DNA of 26,933 nucleotides from a virus. The stretch covers positions 1-26,933 of IMG/VR virus record IMGVR_UViG_3300025086_000185; one strand, given 5' to 3'. The position numbers and the translations under genes were made by a program. Position 1 is the stretch's first letter, and every line of letters starts with the position of its first letter. Below are positions 1,515-11,765 of this stretch, one piece after another. The notes beneath the pieces are model-generated. The model saw nothing but the letters and a program-made list of their open reading frames with translations, had not been told where the DNA came from and made no database searches.

Positions 1515-2693
1515 GTGGCAAATAGAATAGTCAAAAAATTCTCTATGAGGAGTATGAGAGAGGTAGTAGGAGACCTTTCTCAAACTAATCATTATATGGT
1601 CAGTTTTTCTACTTTGAATAATACTCTTATGAGTTATATTCAAACGAAAATAGGTTTTCAGGAAGATGTAAGATTATTTTTATCAAGAAAAACTGGTCTT
1701 CTTTGTTCCGAAGCATCACTACCAACAAGTTCACTTGCAACCGGAGAGGTTCGAGATAATTTTATGGGAATTCCTCAAGAATTTGCCCATACTCGTTTAT
1801 ATACTGATATTGATTTCACATTTTATGTTGATACTAATTATGTCAACTTAAGAATATTTGAATCATGGATGGATTATATTTCTGGTGGTAGTGGAGCAGA
1901 TGAATTAACTGAAAATTATTATAGGAGAATGACATACCCAAGCACTTATAAAGTTCAAACGATGTTCATCTCAAAGTTTGAAAAGGATTTCAACTCTCAA
2001 ATAGATTATCAGTTCATTAATGCATTTCCAAAATTAGTCACGGCGATTCCGGTTGCTTATGGTGCCGCAGATTTATTAAAAGTAACCGTGCAATTTTCAT
2101 ATGATCGATATATTGTAAATCCCAGAGGATCAATCAAAAAAGCAAATATAAGTGAATTTAGTGATATTCCTCGTATAGCAAATGATGTAGCACCAACGCA
2201 AGGTTTGGAAGTGAGAGATAAGAAAGTTGTAGTTGCAAATCCTGAAGGAGGCACTGCGGCAACTCCCCAGGATGCAGCACCACCTGGTGTCCCGGAACAA
2301 AATGATAATACTGAAACTCCCCCACCTGTAACTCCACCTGTAACTCCACCTGGAGGAGGTCCACCTCCTCCTCCTACGAAGGAAAGAACCGCAGGTGATC
2401 AGGCAGTAACACAAAATACATCCAATCTTAACTATGGAATTCCCAATGGGGGAGAAAGATTCTTCACAGGATCCGATGGTAAGGGTTATAGAGCCAAACG
2501 TTTCGGTAATAATGTTGTAATCTATTCAGACTATAAAGGTATTGGAAACTTTGGAAACTTGTTTGATAAAGAAATTACATCTACAAAAACTAGAACAACA
2601 ACTGGTAATGGTTGGCTTTGGAATGATCTTAAAAATGTATCTGAAAAGGGAGGATTAACCGGAAGTAATTTTAGAGATTCTCTAAGTTTCTAA
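1515..2693 (+). CDS. 54: Baseplate tail-tube initiator-like protein (gp54 type, tail-tube fold) with Pro-rich extension
   Basis: 392 aa with a GTG start (AAGG at 1503-1506 is the only Shine-Dalgarno candidate). Residues about 20-205 look like the beta-barrel tube fold shared by gp19, gp48 and gp54; the segment 150-200 (FISKFEKDF, then IDYQFINAFPKLVTAIPVAY and LLKVTVQFSYDRYIV) is characteristic. In T4, gp54 binds the gp48 cap and nucleates the tail tube. Its position next to gp48 and gene 26 agrees with the T4 gene neighbourhood 26-51-27-28-29-48-54. Residues 250-290 form a Pro/Thr/Gly-rich linker built on a PPVT repeat, followed by a separate 100-residue C-terminal domain that I do not recognise. 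The extension makes it longer than T4 gp54 (320 aa). It could instead be annotated simply as a tail-tube-like structural protein. Confidence 0.6.
   Translation: MANRIVKKFSMRSMREVVGDLSQTNHYMVSFSTLNNTLMSYIQTKIGFQEDVRLFLSRKTGLLCSEASLPTSSLATGEVRDNFMGIPQEFAHTRLYTDIDFTFYVDTNYVNLRIFESWMDYISGGSGADELTENYYRRMTYPSTYKVQTMFISKFEKDFNSQIDYQFINAFPKLVTAIPVAYGAADLLKVTVQFSYDRYIVNPRGSIKKANISEFSDIPRIANDVAPTQGLEVRDKKVVVANPEGGTAATPQDAAPPGVPEQNDNTETPPPVTPPVTPPGGGPPPPPTKERTAGDQAVTQNTSNLNYGIPNGGERFFTGSDGKGYRAKRFGNNVVIYSDYKGIGNFGNLFDKEITSTKTRTTTGNGWLWNDLKNVSEKGGLTGSNFRDSLSF
2325..2353 (+). repeat. Short tandem repeat encoding Pro-Pro-Val-Thr
   Basis: A 12-nt unit (ccacctgtaact) is repeated a little over two times and extends into a Pro/Gly run. 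It forms the flexible linker between the tube-fold domain and the C-terminal domain of the gp54-like protein. Confidence 0.6.
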
Positions 2694-2740: not shown

Positions 2741-3463
2741 ATGCCTTTACCCAAGATTAATACACCGACCTATGAGTTGGTGTTGCCTTCTACCGGAAAG
2801 AAGATTAAATATAGACCTTTCCTTGTAAGAGAAGAAAAAATTCTTATTATGGCAATGGAATCTGAAGACATGAATCAGATTACCAGTGCGATCATTCAAA
2901 TCATTAGTGATTGTCTTCTTGCAAAAGATATTAAAGTAGAATCTTTGGCAACTTTTGATATGGAATATTTGTTTTTGAATATTCGTGCAAAGTCTGTTGG
3001 TGAAACAGTAGAGGTTAATGTGACTTGTCCTGATGATGGGGAAACTCAAGTTGAGATGTCAATCAATATTGATGACATCAAAGTTAAAAAAACTAGAGGA
3101 CATAAGAATATTGTCAAACTTGATGACAATCTCTCGATGAAACTTAAGTATCCATCACTCGATCAATTTATTGAAAACAATTTTGATACTGGTGAATCAT
3201 CTAATGAGATTTCTCAATCACTTTCAATGATTACTTCTTGTATTGAAATGGTTTATAATGAAGAAGAAAGTTGGGAAGCATCCGATTGCACCACGGAAGA
3301 ACTAAATGATTTTGTGGAGCAAATGAATACCAAACAATTCAAACAGATTGAGAATTTTTTCACCACAATGCCAAAATTATCACATAAAATTGCGGTTAAA
3401 AATCCAAAAACTGGTGTAGAGTCTGAAGTTCTCCTTGAAGGGTTAGCAGCTTTTTTCAGTTAA
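2741..3463 (+). CDS. 26: Baseplate hub assembly protein gp26 (T4_baseplate family)
   Basis: 240 aa with the family's N-terminal signature: YELVLPSTGKKIKYRPFLVR at 11-30 continuing EEKILIMA, then DMEYLFLNIRAKSVGE at 73-88 and a TCPDDGE segment at 95-101. In T4, gp26 is required for hub formation. Its location immediately before the tape-measure genes is also that of tail assembly chaperones in other long-tailed phages. The last codons read GCT TTT TTC AGT TAA, which contains an in-frame -1 slippery heptamer (3451-3457). A shift there would replace the last residue and stop with Q-L-S and continue into the 59-aa frame, giving a predicted 301-aa product (239 + 3 + 59). Without the shift the normal 240-aa protein is made. 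Confidence 0.8.
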   Translation: MPLPKINTPTYELVLPSTGKKIKYRPFLVREEKILIMAMESEDMNQITSAIIQIISDCLLAKDIKVESLATFDMEYLFLNIRAKSVGETVEVNVTCPDDGETQVEMSINIDDIKVKKTRGHKNIVKLDDNLSMKLKYPSLDQFIENNFDTGESSNEISQSLSMITSCIEMVYNEEESWEASDCTTEELNDFVEQMNTKQFKQIENFFTTMPKLSHKIAVKNPKTGVESEVLLEGLAAFFS

Positions 3464-3494
3464 GTATGGCTCATACCAATCTTGAGTCATACTT
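3451..3494 (+). promoter_or_regulatory. Predicted programmed -1 ribosomal frameshift signal
   Basis: In the gene 26 frame the heptamer T TTT TTC occupies 3451-3457, the X XXY YYZ form. After a 4-nt spacer, bases 3462-3473 pair with 3483-3494 in 12 consecutive pairs (eleven Watson-Crick, one G-U at 3469/3487) closing a 9-nt loop. The gene 26 stop codon (3461-3463) lies at the foot of the stem. The frame entered by slipping back one base is exactly the frame of the 59-aa ORF, whose ATG (3466-3468) lies inside the stem and has no Shine-Dalgarno sequence. The layout is seen directly; the function is inferred from established -1 frameshift sites such as lambda gpG/gpGT. Confidence 0.75.
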
Positions 3495-3645
3495 TAAGAT
3501 TAATTTTGCTTTGATTCAGCATCATAAATATTCATTAACAGAGATTGAAAACATGATTCCTTGGGAGAAGGACATTTATCTGGCACTACTTCAACAGTAC
3601 ATTGAAGAAGAAAACTTAAAGGCACAACAAAAGAGTGGAAACTAA
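3466..3645 (+). CDS. 59-aa ORF, probably expressed as -1 frameshift extension of gp26 (gp51-position; tape-measure chaperone-like)
   Basis: The ORF begins M-A-H-T-N-L-E-S-Y-F and has the helical core EIENMIPWEKDIYLALLQQY at residues 26-45, ending in an acidic-basic tail EEENLKAQQKSGN. The pattern of a conserved Pro-Trp/aromatic-Glu followed by an amphipathic helix resembles the short second ORFs of tail assembly chaperone pairs. By position it corresponds to T4 gene 51 (hub assembly catalyst), but T4 gp51 is much longer, so I give no symbol. No Shine-Dalgarno is visible and the ATG is buried in the hairpin described above, so translation as a gp26 fusion is more likely than free initiation. 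The 3' end overlaps the next gene by 11 nt, and it contains a CATAAATA at 3523-3530. Confidence 0.7.
   Translation: MAHTNLESYFKINFALIQHHKYSLTEIENMIPWEKDIYLALLQQYIEEENLKAQQKSGN
3523..3530 (+). promoter_or_regulatory. Possible intragenic late promoter before the tape-measure-like gene
   Basis: CATAAATA matches NATAAATA exactly but lies within the 59-aa ORF, 104 nt before the next start (3635). The spacing is unlike the other motifs here (22-34 nt), so it could be a chance match in AT-rich coding sequence. Confidence 0.25.
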
Positions 3646-5236
3646 TCTAGGGCAGCAAACACCAAAACTAAATGTCACGAATGTCTCATCGGCAGTATTC
3701 GGAAAGGATGGTTCTGCTTTAGGCGAAGAAAGTAAAATTGGTAAACTTTCTCGTATCGTAAGAACCACTCGTCTTAAAGTAAATCAGGTTGAAAAAATTC
3801 TTCCAGAGCATCAGCAATTAATTGGTTCAAATGCAACAAAAATTAAATCAAATACTGAAAACATAAAAATTAATGCAGATAAAATTACACGACTGAAGAA
3901 AATACTTCAAAACCAAAAAAGTGATATAGGAAAAAAATTACCAGACAGCACAGAAAAGAAAGATAAGGCACAATTAAATACTACACTATCAGAAACCAAT
4001 AGAATTCTTGTAGAAATTCAAAAGCAACTTGCACAGGATTTTGGTGCAAGAGAGCAAGAAGCAAAAGAAGAAAGTGAAGATGCAAAAGAAGCAACATCTA
4101 AACAAAGATTTAAACGAGAAGAAACTGCACTAGAAAAATCTGCAAAATCTATAGTTTCTACGGCCAAAAAAGCAACTAAAAAAGTTGCATCTCCTCTTGG
4201 AAATATTTTTCAAAAAATATTAGCGTTCATAGGAATTCTTGGTAAAGGTATAGCACTTAATGCTGCTTTTGCATGGTTCCAAGATCCAGAAAATCAGAAA
4301 AAAATAACTAAGTTTTTTAATATTTTAAAAGAAAACTGGAAGTTACTGCGAAATATATTTTTGACTGTTGTTGCTGCTGGTGTAATAATAAAAGTGGTAG
4401 GTGCTCTCACAGCGATAGGAGGTGTCCTTGCATTTTTAGCTAATCCAGTAGTACTAGCTTCATTAGCACTTCTTCTTGGAGCTTTATCTATTCCATTTAT
4501 TATGGATAAAATTAGTGCGGACGAGAGAAAAAAAACATTTGGTGAAGGGAATATGGATAAAGGACTTTTTGTTACTCGGGCATTGAATAATTATGGAAGA
4601 AAGGCTACTAAAAAAAATAGAGAAGAAAACCTGTCGGATCAGGAACAAAGAGAATATTTGATGTTGCAAAATTATAATAAAATGCTACAGGATAGGCAAA
4701 GAGCCAATCAAGACTTGTTTGCCGCAAGAAAAAATAAAAAAGGTGCAGAGGTTATTTCTGGTTTAGAGCAACGACTTCAAGGTATTGACAAAGATTTAAC
4801 TATGTTTGAGCGTGGAGAGGGGGGAGTTAAGATTCAGGGGCAAACTGTGGGAAAACTTTTTGAAGTTTTTAAAGCAACCGGACTTGTGCCACAAACTTCT
4901 TTATCCAAGTCGGGATTACAATATAGAGCAGAGGGTGGTCCTGTAATGGCAGGAAATACATATCTAGTAGGAGAAAACGGACCAGAATTATTCTCTCCAA
5001 ATATTGATGGATCTATTGTCAATAATATGAGAACAGAGAAAATATATCAAATGCTTGCATCAGGAAAGAAGGGTAGAACTAGAATTGTAAATTTACCACC
5101 ACAAGTAATTGAAGGTCCAAAACCAGAGGTAAATGTGAATCAAGGTCCTGCAACTAAAGCACCCACAATATCAAGTTCTAATCCGTTCGATGGTTCGAGA
5201 TTAGTAACCCCTGAAATTTACGGAATATCGGTGTAG
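3635..5236 (+). CDS. Tape-measure-like tail protein with coiled coils and membrane-type segments
   Basis: 533 aa, GTG start overlapping the previous ORF by 11 nt. Residues 35-175 are charged, Lys/Glu-rich and strongly coiled-coil-like. A Lys/Ala stretch at 165-185 is followed by SPLGNIFQKILAFIGILGKG (186-205) with LNAAF, then two or three hydrophobic spans at about 241-289. Residues 432-455 carry a motif seen near the end of many tape-measure proteins: EGGPVMAGNTYLVGENGPEL, then FSP. The C-terminal 60 residues are Pro/Asn-rich. Such proteins set tail length and are released into the host envelope during DNA injection. T4's tape measure gp29 is 590 aa, a comparable size. The gene follows the presumed chaperone pair, as tape-measure genes do in other phages. 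The direct gp29 equivalence is unproven; the neighbouring 588-aa protein shares part of the architecture. Confidence 0.6.
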   Translation: METNLGQQTPKLNVTNVSSAVFGKDGSALGEESKIGKLSRIVRTTRLKVNQVEKILPEHQQLIGSNATKIKSNTENIKINADKITRLKKILQNQKSDIGKKLPDSTEKKDKAQLNTTLSETNRILVEIQKQLAQDFGAREQEAKEESEDAKEATSKQRFKREETALEKSAKSIVSTAKKATKKVASPLGNIFQKILAFIGILGKGIALNAAFAWFQDPENQKKITKFFNILKENWKLLRNIFLTVVAAGVIIKVVGALTAIGGVLAFLANPVVLASLALLLGALSIPFIMDKISADERKKTFGEGNMDKGLFVTRALNNYGRKATKKNREENLSDQEQREYLMLQNYNKMLQDRQRANQDLFAARKNKKGAEVISGLEQRLQGIDKDLTMFERGEGGVKIQGQTVGKLFEVFKATGLVPQTSLSKSGLQYRAEGGPVMAGNTYLVGENGPELFSPNIDGSIVNNMRTEKIYQMLASGKKGRTRIVNLPPQVIEGPKPEVNVNQGPATKAPTISSSNPFDGSRLVTPEIYGISV

Positions 5237-5240
5237 TATT

Positions 5241-7007
5241 ATGCCTTTACCTCTATTAGGACTAGCATTAGGAGCAGGAAAAGCAATAGTCGGCGGAGTA
5301 GCAAAGGCAACTTCTGTAGGTGCAAAAGTTGCTGTATCTGGAGCAAAAGTTGGTGCCAAAGCATCGGTATCAACGGGTAAATTTTTTGCAAAGAGTGGTG
5401 CTAGAGTTGCTCGTGGTGGCGTTAAAATTGCAAGACAAGGTGGTAAACAAGTTGTAAAAGGTTCAAAATTTTTCAAAAAGAAAGTTGTTGGTGGCATCAC
5501 AAAAAGATTAAAACAAAATGCAACTAATCTTCGAGATTCTCTCAAAAAAGCAAATAAAAATCAGGATAAATTGAGAACCAAGAAGCAACAGAGAGAGGAA
5601 AAAACAAAAAGTCTTAATAAGAAAAGAGAAAAAGAAAAAGAATTAGAGTCAAAACAATCTAATGCTCGTGGAAATAAACTTAAAAATCTTTTGGCAAAAG
5701 CTCCTTTAGGTATTTTTGATAAATTATTTTCTCTTGGTGGATTATTGCTTGGTGGCATTCTTATTAATGCAGCACAGGGTCTTATAGAGAAAGGCAAAAA
5801 GTTCATGAAAGACAACAAAGAACTTTTTGATACTATTGGAAACTTTTTAACTGGTGTAAAAGATGGTGTTGTTGGATTCTTTGACTCTTTTACTGGATCA
5901 TATGCAAAAGAAAATGCCTTTGATGATTTTGCAAAATTTAGTGATGATGGCACATTACAAAGTGGTAAACTCAAAGATGTGGCAGATATCTATAATGGTT
6001 TTGGTGACTTCATTAATAAAATTGAAAAAGTATTGGGTGGAAAAGGAACCACAGGTAATTTTTTAAAAACGGGTACAGTTCTTGCAAAACAGGGTGGTAA
6101 AACAGGGACCAAAAATTTAACCACCGGAGAATTTACACCGAGAGCATTTACTAAAGAAGAACAAGAAAGATTTGATAGAATGCAAAGTGGTGGATCTGCA
6201 TCAGCACAACCAGCAGAAGCAGGTAAAGAAGATCAATTATCCTATGATAAATCAACAGGACCAGCTGATCCTGCTCACGGTGCCGGATCTAATAGTCCCC
6301 AAAGTAAAACTGGATTTGTTTCAGGAGCAGGTAATACAGGTAGAAAAATATTTTTACATTGGAGTGCCGGTAGTTATACTAATGCATATAATGCATATCA
6401 TTCAATAGCTCTGGGTGATGGTAGTATTGTTCGACATACTCCATATGATCAAGATAAATATGCTCATACTAAAGGGGCAAATAAAGGTAGTGTCGGATTG
6501 GCAATTGCTGCAATGGGAGGTAAAGGTGTTGGTGAAAATAATTTTGGAGCATTCCCTCCAACAAAGAAACAACTTGATGCCATGGTTTATGAAGCAGCAA
6601 GACTTGCCGTTGATTGGGGATGGTCAGAGGCAACAATCGATTCAAATGTTCGCACTCATGGAGAATGGGAAAGGTATGCAACAAGAAATAATTTACTTCC
6701 CGGAAGACCTCAAAGATGGGATGTAGATAAGTTAAGGCAATCTGATCCAAACGTAGATACGAGTAAGATATTAAGTGGTGGTGGAAATGAACTTCGCCAA
6801 AGAATAAAAGCAACTTTCAAACTAATAAAGCAACAAGCAAACATATCATCTTCAACAGTTCCAACTGCCGCTGATATATCACCCACTGAAAATCAAACTC
6901 TAACAGCAAGTGCAATAAGTCAAGAGGATGATGTGGAAAATACGATCTTTGTACAAACAGTTGTTAAAAATAATTATATTCCAGTCCCGACAACAACCTT
7001 AACATAA
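5241..7007 (+). CDS. Tail protein with tape-measure-like N-terminus and N-acetylmuramoyl-L-alanine amidase domain
   Basis: 588 aa, starting 4 nt after the previous stop. Residues 1-95 are unusual: Gly/Ala/Val/Lys repeats (GAKVAVSGAKVGAKASVS at 27-44) without acidic residues. Residues 98-148 are a Lys/Glu coiled coil. Residues 155-180 (PLGIFDKLFSLGGLLLGGIL) are a hydrophobic span matching the PLG-IF segment of the preceding protein. Residues 368-500 form an Amidase_2/PGRP-type domain. The candidate zinc ligands are H373 in FLHWSAG, H473 in RTHGEWERY and D494 in QRWDVDKL, with the supporting H409 and N413 in YAHTKGANKGS. This domain cuts the amide bond between MurNAc and the stem peptide. A linker of Gly/Ser/Pro (315-365) precedes it. 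The likely job is local peptidoglycan opening during infection, carried in the tail, rather than host lysis, since no holin is adjacent. Confidence 0.75.
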   Translation: MPLPLLGLALGAGKAIVGGVAKATSVGAKVAVSGAKVGAKASVSTGKFFAKSGARVARGGVKIARQGGKQVVKGSKFFKKKVVGGITKRLKQNATNLRDSLKKANKNQDKLRTKKQQREEKTKSLNKKREKEKELESKQSNARGNKLKNLLAKAPLGIFDKLFSLGGLLLGGILINAAQGLIEKGKKFMKDNKELFDTIGNFLTGVKDGVVGFFDSFTGSYAKENAFDDFAKFSDDGTLQSGKLKDVADIYNGFGDFINKIEKVLGGKGTTGNFLKTGTVLAKQGGKTGTKNLTTGEFTPRAFTKEEQERFDRMQSGGSASAQPAEAGKEDQLSYDKSTGPADPAHGAGSNSPQSKTGFVSGAGNTGRKIFLHWSAGSYTNAYNAYHSIALGDGSIVRHTPYDQDKYAHTKGANKGSVGLAIAAMGGKGVGENNFGAFPPTKKQLDAMVYEAARLAVDWGWSEATIDSNVRTHGEWERYATRNNLLPGRPQRWDVDKLRQSDPNVDTSKILSGGGNELRQRIKATFKLIKQQANISSSTVPTAADISPTENQTLTASAISQEDDVENTIFVQTVVKNNYIPVPTTTLT

Positions 7008-8870: not shown

Positions 8871-8878
8871 TATAAATA
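8871..8878 (+). promoter_or_regulatory. Consensus late promoter before the transglycosylase gene
   Basis: TATAAATA, an exact match to the T4 late promoter, lies in the 52-bp gap after the OB-fold gene and 25 nt before the ATG at 8904. It is the best late-promoter match in the window. Confidence 0.75.
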
Positions 8879-8903: not shown

Positions 8904-11765
8904 ATGTCAATTCCACAAAACGCACAAAATATTGTGTCCCAAATGGGATTCTCCCAAGAAGAATGGGATTTATACAGAGAAGCTATTGCTAAAATAGAAT
9001 CTCGGGGAAGTGGTGGATATAGTGCTGTTGGAGGTTCTGGTGGTGCATATGACGGAAAATATCAATTAGGATCTTTAGCTAAACAAGATGCTGCGAGAAT
9101 TGCTGGTGTTCGTAATCCCGGAGATAGTTCTGCAGGAAGACAATCTTTTCGAAGTAATCCAACCCAACAAGAGTTATTTTTTGCAGCATATACAAAAGCA
9201 AACTTTGGTTATTTAAGTAGCAATTCAAAATTTGTAAATGCAAGTCCAGAAAAAAAACTTGAGATACTTGGATACGCTCATAATCAGGGATGGGATGGTG
9301 CTAATAATTTTCTGAACACTGGTGAAGTTGGTGCGGATGGATTTGGAACAAAGGGAACAAAATATACACAAGAAGTAGCAAAGGCATTTAGAAGAAGAGG
9401 AAGATTACCTTCAACATCAAGTTCATCGACATCAGATTCATCAACATCAGATTCATCACAAGAAACAGCAAAAATAAACTATGGGGCAATTACAAAAAAA
9501 ATAACAGTACCAAAGGAGGTTAGTCCAGAAGCATTATCTGCCATAAATTCTATAAATTCAAAAAAAGATGAAATTGCCGAACTAATAGCAGAACAAGGAG
9601 GAGACGAAAAAGCTTTTGAGAATTGGCCTGCTGAGGCAAAGGAAGAGTATAATAAAAAATTAACAGAATTAACACAACTAGAATTAGACTTTAGAAAATT
9701 AACAAAAACTGATGCCTCTGCTAATTGTATTGCACGAGATACTATAGGAAAAACATGGACCTTTATAGATTCTCCCGACTGTACACAACTTAAGTTTTCT
9801 GCTGCACAAAGGAAAGCAGTTGGAGAACTCAATAAACCCGTGGATTTACCGGATCCATGTGGACAAGGTGATTTGGCCAAAATTAACACCTCATTATTAA
9901 AATTTTTCAATGATCTCAAAGCAATAAGACAATTCGGAGACACTTATATTAATAGCACAGTTAATGAAATATACAGAGTTACAAATTTAGTCAGAAATAC
10001 GGCATCAGCAATCGGTGCAGTATTAAAAGGCATAATGCAAAATCTTCGTAATTGGTTGCTCGATAAAATTAGACGAGGTATTCAAGATTTAATTGATATG
10101 ATATTTCCAACCCTTGCCAAACAATTAAAAAATACCATAATAGGACAAATTATTGATAATATTCTATGCAAATTTAAAGATATAATCAAAAACCTTGGCA
10201 GTCTTGTTGGAGACTTCTTATTCGAACTTATCGGTAATGTTGTCAATCTTCCTCTTTGTGGAGTTCAGCAATTTACAAACGGATTAATTAATAATGTTGT
10301 TGCCAAAGTAGATGAGGCACTGGCACCAATATTAGATGGCATCAATGATCTTTTAGGTGGTGCCGGTAAAATTGTTGGGTCAGTATTTGAAGCACTTGAT
10401 TTCATTCTTGGATTTGAAGCATATCTTTGCCAAAAACCAAATTGCCCGGAAATTAAATCCACAATATTAGGACCATGGGCAAACTCTCCCGATAAACCTT
10501 TTGGAAATGGTTTTGATAATTTTGTTGGCGATGCCGAGAATTATATTTTGGGTGGAGGACTAGAAGAATCCGTTAATGGACTATCAATTTTCGGCGGAAA
10601 ATTAGGAGACTTGGCAAATGCACCCGATGCAGCATTCCCATGTGATACAGATCCCTTTAAATGTGGTCCACCATCCATTGAAATTTTTGGTGGTGGTGGT
10701 ATTGGTGCCGTAGGTAAGGCAGTTATTGATAGATTTGGTAGAATTTATGGAATCGATATAGAAAATGGTGGTAGTGGATACACAAAACCTCCATTTGTAA
10801 GTATTATTGATCCATGTGATAATGGTAGAGGTGCATCTGGATATGCAGTAATTGATTATGAAACAGGACAAGTTATTGATATTCCAGTGATTAATCCTGG
10901 ATACGGATATCCAAATGCACCAACTGGTTTTGATGAATTTGGTGATCCGGTAGATCCCACATTACCTGGTGGCGGAGGAACCACTCCTGGTGGTGGAGAT
11001 ACTATCATCGATCCTGATATTGTAGTGAATGACTACGTGGTTTGTTTAAAAGGTTTTGATATTATTTCTACAGGACTTGGATACACACCCACAGATGAAA
11101 TTATAATTACACCAGACGTTCCAAATTTAAGGGCAAGTGTCAGAATAACAGAGGAGGGTCAAATTGTTAGTATAACCTTGACTGATGAAGTTTGTGGTTT
11201 AACTGATATTCCAACTGTTACAATAAAAAGTCCGACAGGAGAAGGTGTCAAAATTAGACCAAGATTCTCCTTCAAGAGACTTACTGATGATATTGAAGAA
11301 GAAACACCACCAGAATTGATTGTTCCCGTAGATAAGGCAACTACTAGTGATGGTATTATTAATGCTCTTGCTCAAAGAAGTGTTGTTCGTGTAATTGATT
11401 GTGTTGGAAATACTGCCCCAGTCATCGGATATGTTAATGGTCAACCATATTCTGGACCATTCCATGTTCACCCATCCAAAGGCGTGAAAATGGTTGGTGC
11501 CTTCCATATTCGTGGATATCATGATACAATCTATGATACTGCTGAAGAAAGTTTAAATAGAAGAAGATCTACTCAACTCTCGACTCCTGCACCAGCAACC
11601 CCCCAAACTCCTGCATCGACATCGAGACCTGCACCAACGCCAAGACCCACACCAGCACCAAGGTCTGCTCCCACACCCACTCCAAGACCTGCACCCACTC
11701 CAAGACCCTCCCCATCACCACCATCGTCATCACCCGGTGGCGGTGGTGGATATGGCGGATATTAA
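8904..11765 (+). CDS. Large baseplate/tail structural protein with N-terminal lytic transglycosylase-like domain
   Basis: 953 aa. Residues 20-165 form a lysozyme-like domain: EAIAKIESRGSGGYSAVGGS with candidate catalytic E32, then YDGKYQLGSLAK at 49-60 and ILGYAHNQGWDGANNFLNTG at 121-140. A Ser/Thr linker follows at about 173-190, and a charged helical linker to about 300. Residues 330-510 are long amphipathic helices containing a CQKPNCPE segment. From about 595 come beta repeats with GGSGYTKPPFVSI, NPGYGYP and STGLGYTPTDEIII. About residues 845-880 hold PYSGPFHVHP and AFHIRGYHDTIYD, a His-rich conserved block. The last 60 residues are PTPRP/PAP repeats ending in GGGGGYGGY. It probably delivers cell-wall cleavage at the tail tip, taking the place of the T4 gp5 lysozyme. 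It has its own late promoter and perfect Shine-Dalgarno. Confidence 0.7.
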   Translation: MSIPQNAQNIVSQMGFSQEEWDLYREAIAKIESRGSGGYSAVGGSGGAYDGKYQLGSLAKQDAARIAGVRNPGDSSAGRQSFRSNPTQQELFFAAYTKANFGYLSSNSKFVNASPEKKLEILGYAHNQGWDGANNFLNTGEVGADGFGTKGTKYTQEVAKAFRRRGRLPSTSSSSTSDSSTSDSSQETAKINYGAITKKITVPKEVSPEALSAINSINSKKDEIAELIAEQGGDEKAFENWPAEAKEEYNKKLTELTQLELDFRKLTKTDASANCIARDTIGKTWTFIDSPDCTQLKFSAAQRKAVGELNKPVDLPDPCGQGDLAKINTSLLKFFNDLKAIRQFGDTYINSTVNEIYRVTNLVRNTASAIGAVLKGIMQNLRNWLLDKIRRGIQDLIDMIFPTLAKQLKNTIIGQIIDNILCKFKDIIKNLGSLVGDFLFELIGNVVNLPLCGVQQFTNGLINNVVAKVDEALAPILDGINDLLGGAGKIVGSVFEALDFILGFEAYLCQKPNCPEIKSTILGPWANSPDKPFGNGFDNFVGDAENYILGGGLEESVNGLSIFGGKLGDLANAPDAAFPCDTDPFKCGPPSIEIFGGGGIGAVGKAVIDRFGRIYGIDIENGGSGYTKPPFVSIIDPCDNGRGASGYAVIDYETGQVIDIPVINPGYGYPNAPTGFDEFGDPVDPTLPGGGGTTPGGGDTIIDPDIVVNDYVVCLKGFDIISTGLGYTPTDEIIITPDVPNLRASVRITEEGQIVSITLTDEVCGLTDIPTVTIKSPTGEGVKIRPRFSFKRLTDDIEEETPPELIVPVDKATTSDGIINALAQRSVVRVIDCVGNTAPVIGYVNGQPYSGPFHVHPSKGVKMVGAFHIRGYHDTIYDTAEESLNRRRSTQLSTPAPATPQTPASTSRPAPTPRPTPAPRSAPTPTPRPAPTPRPSPSPPSSSPGGGGGYGGY
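9422..9458 (+). repeat. 15-nt tandem repeat in Ser/Thr linker
   Basis: The unit ttcatcRacatcaga occurs twice in full and once in part. It encodes S-S-T-S-D repeats that link the transglycosylase-like domain to the rest of the chain. Length variation here would change linker length without a frameshift. Confidence 0.65.
11580..11762 (+). repeat. Degenerate Pro/Thr/Arg repeat encoding the C-terminal tail
   Basis: Degenerate copies of a unit encoding P-T-P-R-P or P-A-P-R end the 953-aa protein, followed by a Gly-Gly-Tyr-rich tip. The segment is low complexity and probably extended. Confidence 0.55.

Follow-up and report, generated by a model that had tools for sequence, protein, structure and literature searches.

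In the window, as the whole 26,933-nt stretch of DNA analysed here, from a marine T4-like virus, is called, gene 26 is followed by a 59-aa ORF that would normally be annotated as a gene of its own, gene 51. This arrangement raises the question of whether the small ORF is translated independently or is reached by ribosomes that change frame at the end of gene 26. It is very probable, on comparative grounds, that a -1 frameshift in gene 26 makes both a short and a long tail chaperone. Comparison across relatives reveals a slip site, an open and conserved -1 frame, an absence of alternative start codons in many relatives and a covarying stem; the corresponding features of the window are collected in Table 1.

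Table 1. Features of the gene 26 region of the window and the grounds on which each was assigned
Feature	Position	Strand	Basis
Tail tube protein gene, directly upstream of gene 26	1515-2693	+	PF23849, E 7.2e-23; phrog_45, E 1.3e-39
Gene 26, read in the zero frame; putative short tail assembly chaperone (TAC-N)	2741-3463	+	240 aa; PF12322, phrog_150
Predicted gp26-gp51C fusion (TAC-NC), 301 aa	2741-3645	+	Sequence; natural in-frame counterpart in T-even gp51
Slippery heptamer T_TTT_TTC, in phase with gene 26	3451-3457	+	Sequence; T_TTT_TTN in 364 of 368 loci
Extension in the -1 frame (TAC-C domain)	3457-3645	+	62 codons plus stop; open frame; phrog_634 match
Zero-frame stop TAA, one codon past the slip site	3461-3463	+	In each of the 364 loci, 0-1 codons separate slip site and stop
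Putative downstream stimulatory hairpin	3463-3493	+	Conserved 11-pair stem 3463-3473/3483-3493, loop 3474-3482, 5-nt spacer; fold, covariation
59-aa ORF as normally annotated (gp51)	3466-3645	+	Considered not an independent gene
Next gene downstream, a tape-measure candidate that overlaps the end of TAC-C	3635-5236	+	Position; short-motif phrog matches

The product of gene 26 matches Pfam PF12322 (T4_baseplate) with an E-value of 5.7e-75 and phrog_150 (baseplate hub) with one of 7.5e-81. It is the single PF12322 gene in the 26.9-kb record, which is a fragment, and the record holds no second copy carrying the C-terminal domain in frame; across 703 phage records there is likewise one gp26 place per record. 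The T4 late-promoter-like motif CATAAATA occurs at 2706-2713, 27 nt before the gene 26 start, and TATAAATA at 8871-8878, 25 nt before the start at 8904 of a 953-aa ORF, the total of such motifs in the window being no higher than chance.

The 3' end of gene 26 reads GCA GCT TTT TTC AGT TAA, and the slippery heptamer that the earlier note had described near the stop is indeed in frame, with a single sense codon (AGT) between it and the TAA. The heptamer by itself is weak evidence, because six codon-phased T_TTT_TTN sites occur in the ORFs of the window, one of them at 3355 within gene 26. Given these six sites and the A+T-rich genome, the arrangement might be a coincidence, in which an A+T-rich gene happens to have Phe-Phe codons towards its end, accompanied by a chance stem or by an unrelated element such as a terminator. 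The relatives speak against this: among 368 homologous gene 26 loci drawn from IMG/VR and phage records, T_TTT_TTN lies in frame, 0-1 codons before the stop, in 364, where its last base is C in 323, A in 26, T in 13 and G in 2. At a second Phe-Phe pair inside the gene, taken as a control, the same motif is found in 11 of 280 distinct loci compared with 287 of 287 at the gene end, and on this control a chance heptamer was rejected. The site inside gene 26 of the window that served as the control is a second in-frame T_TTT_TTC at 3355-3361 (Phe206-Phe207), and it is not conserved in relatives. Furthermore, a T-ending codon followed by TTT is present in 24 of 24 diverse phages, with a joint P of about 10^-14.5 given the codon use of each phage; P-values for the slip site count related loci as independent and so overstate the significance, but the contrast between terminal and internal sites is unambiguous. 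The largest contributions to this value come from GC-rich phages, for example DLP_6, Moby, phiM9 and pf16.

The loci without T_TTT_TTN are those of a damaged contig (L110), T-even JS09, VP-1 and Vibrio phage K476. In VP-1, recorded as Ackermannviridae, the gene ends GTT TTT CGC TAA TG, and in K476 it ends CTT TTT GCG TAA TG, both with an overlap of stop and start and with no canonical heptamer; either a weaker one-tRNA slip (compare the GTTTTT of PMC12846349) or true reinitiation would account for these two. In a marine lineage (L165-L198) the second slip codon is mostly TTA, giving T_TTT_TTA, often together with a GGGCTCTC/GAGAGCCT hairpin.

Beyond the slip site, the -1 frame is open, as the earlier note had proposed: it runs (..FF-QLS-MAHTNLESYF..) to 3645 and would give a fusion of 239+62 = 301 aa, of which the 59-aa part matches the gp51 family phrog_634 with an E-value of 1.8e-27. 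Wherever the extension is complete it is open (358 of 358 loci), with a length of 56-68 aa. It is possible to read gene 51 instead as an independent small gene expressed by termination and reinitiation, the ribosome stopping at the TAA at 3461-3463 and restarting at the ATG at 3466 with no frameshift at all. Such a restart would suit the window and its close relatives, where the ATG lies two bases past the stop, as well as the 94 of 222 distinct extensions that have an ATG at or before the corresponding point, and annotators do call gene 51 separately. However, this is very unlikely for several reasons. In 88 of the 222 there is no ATG, GTG or TTG before the conserved core, so that in these relatives, among them Syn33, S-T4, ACG-2014d, HTVC008M, Aeh1 and Cronobacter S13, the extension cannot be a separately initiated gene; in these start-less relatives the homology extends upstream to the slip site. 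It is in the -1 frame, and upstream of the ATG, that conservation begins; there is no variation in the slip codons, in contrast to an internal Phe-Phe pair, and in the T-evens the domain is fused in frame. In the window itself the ATG, as first suspected, lies inside the stem and is preceded by no Shine-Dalgarno sequence.

The frameshift reading also bears on how gene 51 has been recorded. Two puzzling observations on gp51 are on record (PMC3037559): Aeh1 was the sole T4-like phage of 26 found to be without it, and the cyanophage version has only about 20% of the normal length. A gp51 that forms the -1 part of a fusion would account for both. In the deposited annotations examined gp51 is separate, truncated (Syn33, ACG-2014a) or absent (S-BM3, ACG-2014d, Aeh1, S13), and none of the phage gene tables examined marks a joined gene at the gene 26 end. 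In Aeromonas phage Aeh1 (locus L372) an unannotated 58-aa -1 extension of gene 26 occupies 2283-2456, with no start codon before the core. Hidden extensions also lie in annotation gaps of two other Straboviridae, Cronobacter phage S13 (L373, 3729-3893) and Aeromonas phage Asswx_1 (L101, 2705-2873), from which it follows that the frameshift and the two-gene solution would both be found inside Straboviridae.

Downstream of the slip site, the earlier note had drawn a hairpin of 12 pairs (3462-3473/3483-3494, with one G-U and a 9-nt loop) behind a 4-nt spacer. All coordinates and counts given in that note hold, and these pairs, with the G-U at 3469/3487, and the loop are present. Relatives, however, do not preserve the outermost pair, 3462-3494, and the conserved stem is therefore one pair shorter and its spacer 5 nt. 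Folding of 3440-3510 gave -20.7 kcal/mol, with a z of -4.5 and none of 200 shuffles as low; relative to synonymous shuffles the z of the hairpin is -4.3. Within the clade of the window, the codons CTT GAG TCA TAC of the 3' arm are invariant in 62 of 62 distinct sequences (P 0.015), as against a mean synonymous diversity elsewhere of about 0.31-0.34, and the 43 nt from the slip site to the stem end form the least variable of 713 windows over the gene end and extension in 64 distinct close relatives. Covariation was assessed on 63 sequences picked for their gene 26 homology, without regard to pairing; compensatory cells in the stem number 12, where 2.8 are expected (0 of 500 shuffles). Since all 12 fall at one pair, changing U-A to A-U or G-C, this covariation probably represents few events.

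A second, unrelated stem type, GGGCTCTC/GAGAGCCT, occurs in another lineage and has 17 compensatory cells over four pairs, compared with 5.4 expected (0 of 500 shuffles), and a third, GCCCTC/GAGGGC, occurs in the MED4-213 group. Over 59 sequence clusters the mean hairpin z relative to synonymous shuffles is -1.97, with 54% at p<0.1, and many of the hairpins are separated from the heptamer by 5 nt. A significant hairpin is missing or weak in about half of these clusters; a universal hairpin was rejected on this ground, and the stem would thus be a lineage-dependent helper that is not required in all lineages. Other roles for the hairpin were also considered. A terminator was rejected for want of a terminator-like T tail, and a known Rfam element for want of an Rfam match. 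Masking of the gp51 start codon is unlikely to be the main role of the hairpin, given that lineages without the ATG (L165, L171 and the MED4-213 type) have equally strong hairpins. The lack of a T tail and of an Rfam match, together with the covariation of the stem and a slip site kept against codon use in the GC-rich DLP_6, Moby and phiM9, leaves coincidence scarcely credible as an account of the locus, and already contradicted by the comparative data.

The same features weigh on transcriptional slippage, in which RNA polymerase rather than the ribosome would slip, on the T6 run, and mRNAs one base shorter (or two longer) would encode the fusion by normal translation. A homopolymer T run in 364 of 368 loci is what such slippage would need, and polymerase slippage can also be aided by a hairpin. 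Nevertheless, the run has just six T, with C as the next base in 323 loci and A or G in 28, and a run of six is short for slippage by a bacterial polymerase. The X_XXY_YYZ phase is always kept, the hairpins stand at a spacing typical of ribosomal shifts, for which about 5-9 nt is usual, and often at 5 nt, and the covariation indicates an RNA structure acting downstream of the slip site. Slippage by the polymerase is accordingly regarded as extremely unlikely, and a ribosomal frameshift remains the preferred reading. The alignment of gene 26 ends that had been proposed as a check on it came out in its favour at every point, namely the slippery site, the hairpin covariation and the -1 frame.

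The relationship between the two forms is illuminated by T4 and its nearest relatives. The gp51 proteins of T-even JS09 and Aeromonas phage Aes012 are PF12322 proteins with an extra domain at the end, and a profile of the -1 extension matches their C-terminus with best-domain E-values of 1.8e-11 for Aes012 and 3.6e-8 for JS09 (two loci searched). The 59-aa ORF thus encodes what in T4 is the C-terminal domain of gp51, and T-even gp51 is a paralogue of gp26, matching the gp26 family over its length, with this extra domain fused on. Given the PF12322 membership and the match of the extension profile to T-even gp51, T4 would encode the short form as gp26 and the long form as gp51, in two genes: T4 gp26 is orthologous to the short form of the window, and the C-terminus of gp51 is homologous to its -1 extension. 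In the lineage of the window, one gene plus a frameshift would do the job of T4 gp26 and gp51. In the T-evens, unlike the window, the long form has a full gene to itself on the opposite strand, which apparently arose by duplication and fusion, and there is no slip site at the end of their gene 26. The proposal that the locus is the T4-group version of the lambda G/GT frameshift is well supported by the comparative data for the group, but does not extend to T4 itself, which uses separate paralogous gp26 and gp51 and no frameshift.

A role as tail assembly chaperone is suggested by homology, gene position and published assignment. The match of the downstream neighbour to phrog tape-measure families is weak (E 2.5e-4 and 2.2e-3, a short motif only), and it is proposed as a candidate tape-measure gene from this motif and its position; a tape measure is annotated just downstream of the corresponding locus in Cr30 and HTVC008M. 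Searching the PDB by sequence with gp26 gave no match, and the lambda G-type family was not among the matches in Pfam and PHROG family searches. An AlphaFold2 model of gp26, built on a 46-sequence alignment, has a pLDDT of 86.7, and Foldseek matched it to models of T4-like gp26 in a viral library. In the PDB, the HK97 tail assembly chaperone (2ob9) ranks second and third and is the top interpretable match, at probability 0.89 and 0.60 with a weak E of 0.46-0.71 over some 60 residues, a resemblance between fold and model that fits the chaperone reading without proving it. Past the tape-measure candidate, 5241-7007 encodes a 588-aa protein that matches a phrog endolysin and, weakly and below the cut-off (E 1.1e-4), Amidase_2; it may be a cell-wall hydrolase carried on the tail. 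On the minus strand, 692-1039 encodes a 115-aa protein matching the gp2-like DNA end protector phrog_429 over positions 27-109 of a 210-position profile, possibly a shortened form.

It is suggested that a minority of the ribosomes translating gene 26 would slip back one base at T_TTT_TTC, where the two Phe-tRNAs would re-pair from UUU/UUC to UUU/UUU in a presumed tandem slippage, and that the hairpin starting 5 nt downstream would aid the slip. Translation would then go on in the -1 frame through the gp51-type domain, yielding much short chaperone (gp26, TAC-N) and little of the long TAC-NC, with the short form presumably in excess. We infer both the shift and its efficiency from comparison of sequences. 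By analogy with lambda gpG/gpGT (PMC5009743), both forms would coat the putative tape-measure protein encoded at 3635-5236, and the extra domain would recruit tail tube subunits before both forms leave. On balance it appears probable that, outside the T-evens, T4-like phages depend on a fixed polyT slip site and on a stimulatory hairpin, often 5 nt downstream, that has repeatedly been swapped for unrelated stems, and that much of the marine lineage, together with phages believed to be without gp51, has no means other than the frameshift of making the gp51 domain.

On comparative grounds, these results make a strong case for a tail-chaperone frameshift in marine viruses of a very abundant group. 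If the frameshift reading is true, an extra tail domain on a fraction of gp26 would be needed for assembly of the virus tail. The gene 51 annotations in many of the phage records examined are truncated, separate or absent. No published cyanophage ribosome profiling covering the gene 26 slip site was found; the conserved hairpin could be used in a reporter test.

In a 2016 review the tail-chaperone frameshift was described as widely conserved in long-tailed phages 'except T4' (PMC5009743). Tail-chaperone genes of T4-like phages were since identified by Vladimirov, Gautam and Davidson (Virology 2022), a study cited in PMC10885494 for the two-gene solution in some T4-like phages and in PMC12846349 for polyT slip signals within T4-like TAC-N genes. 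As described in those two citing papers, their system involves genes of the 26 and 51 families, as here, and the proposed -1 shift likewise leads from TAC-N into TAC-C; the window represents an uncultured marine member. To judge from these citations, the idea that T4-like phages use frameshifting had been put forward in print in 2022 and is not new in principle. The present analysis adds the covarying hairpin, the census of start codons and the gp51 of Aeh1 in the -1 frame, and the conservation and turnover of the hairpin may be previously undescribed. In its abstract, the work by Vladimirov and colleagues reportedly describes frameshifting as apparently conserved in several groups of T4-like phages, with T4 using genes 26 and 51. 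In Vandenendeviridae/Andersonviridae (phage Adele, PMC12846349) a polyT slip motif, GTTTTT, similarly stands at the TAC-N end and the -1 frame is open in all alleles, although these are other phage families with another motif than the window, one that resembles VP-1. As with lambda gpG/gpGT, the window would encode a short and an extended chaperone, the proposed shift is in the -1 direction and close to where the first ORF ends, and the candidate tape-measure gene follows directly; the window differs from lambda in its slip site, T_TTT_TTC, and in the conserved downstream stem.
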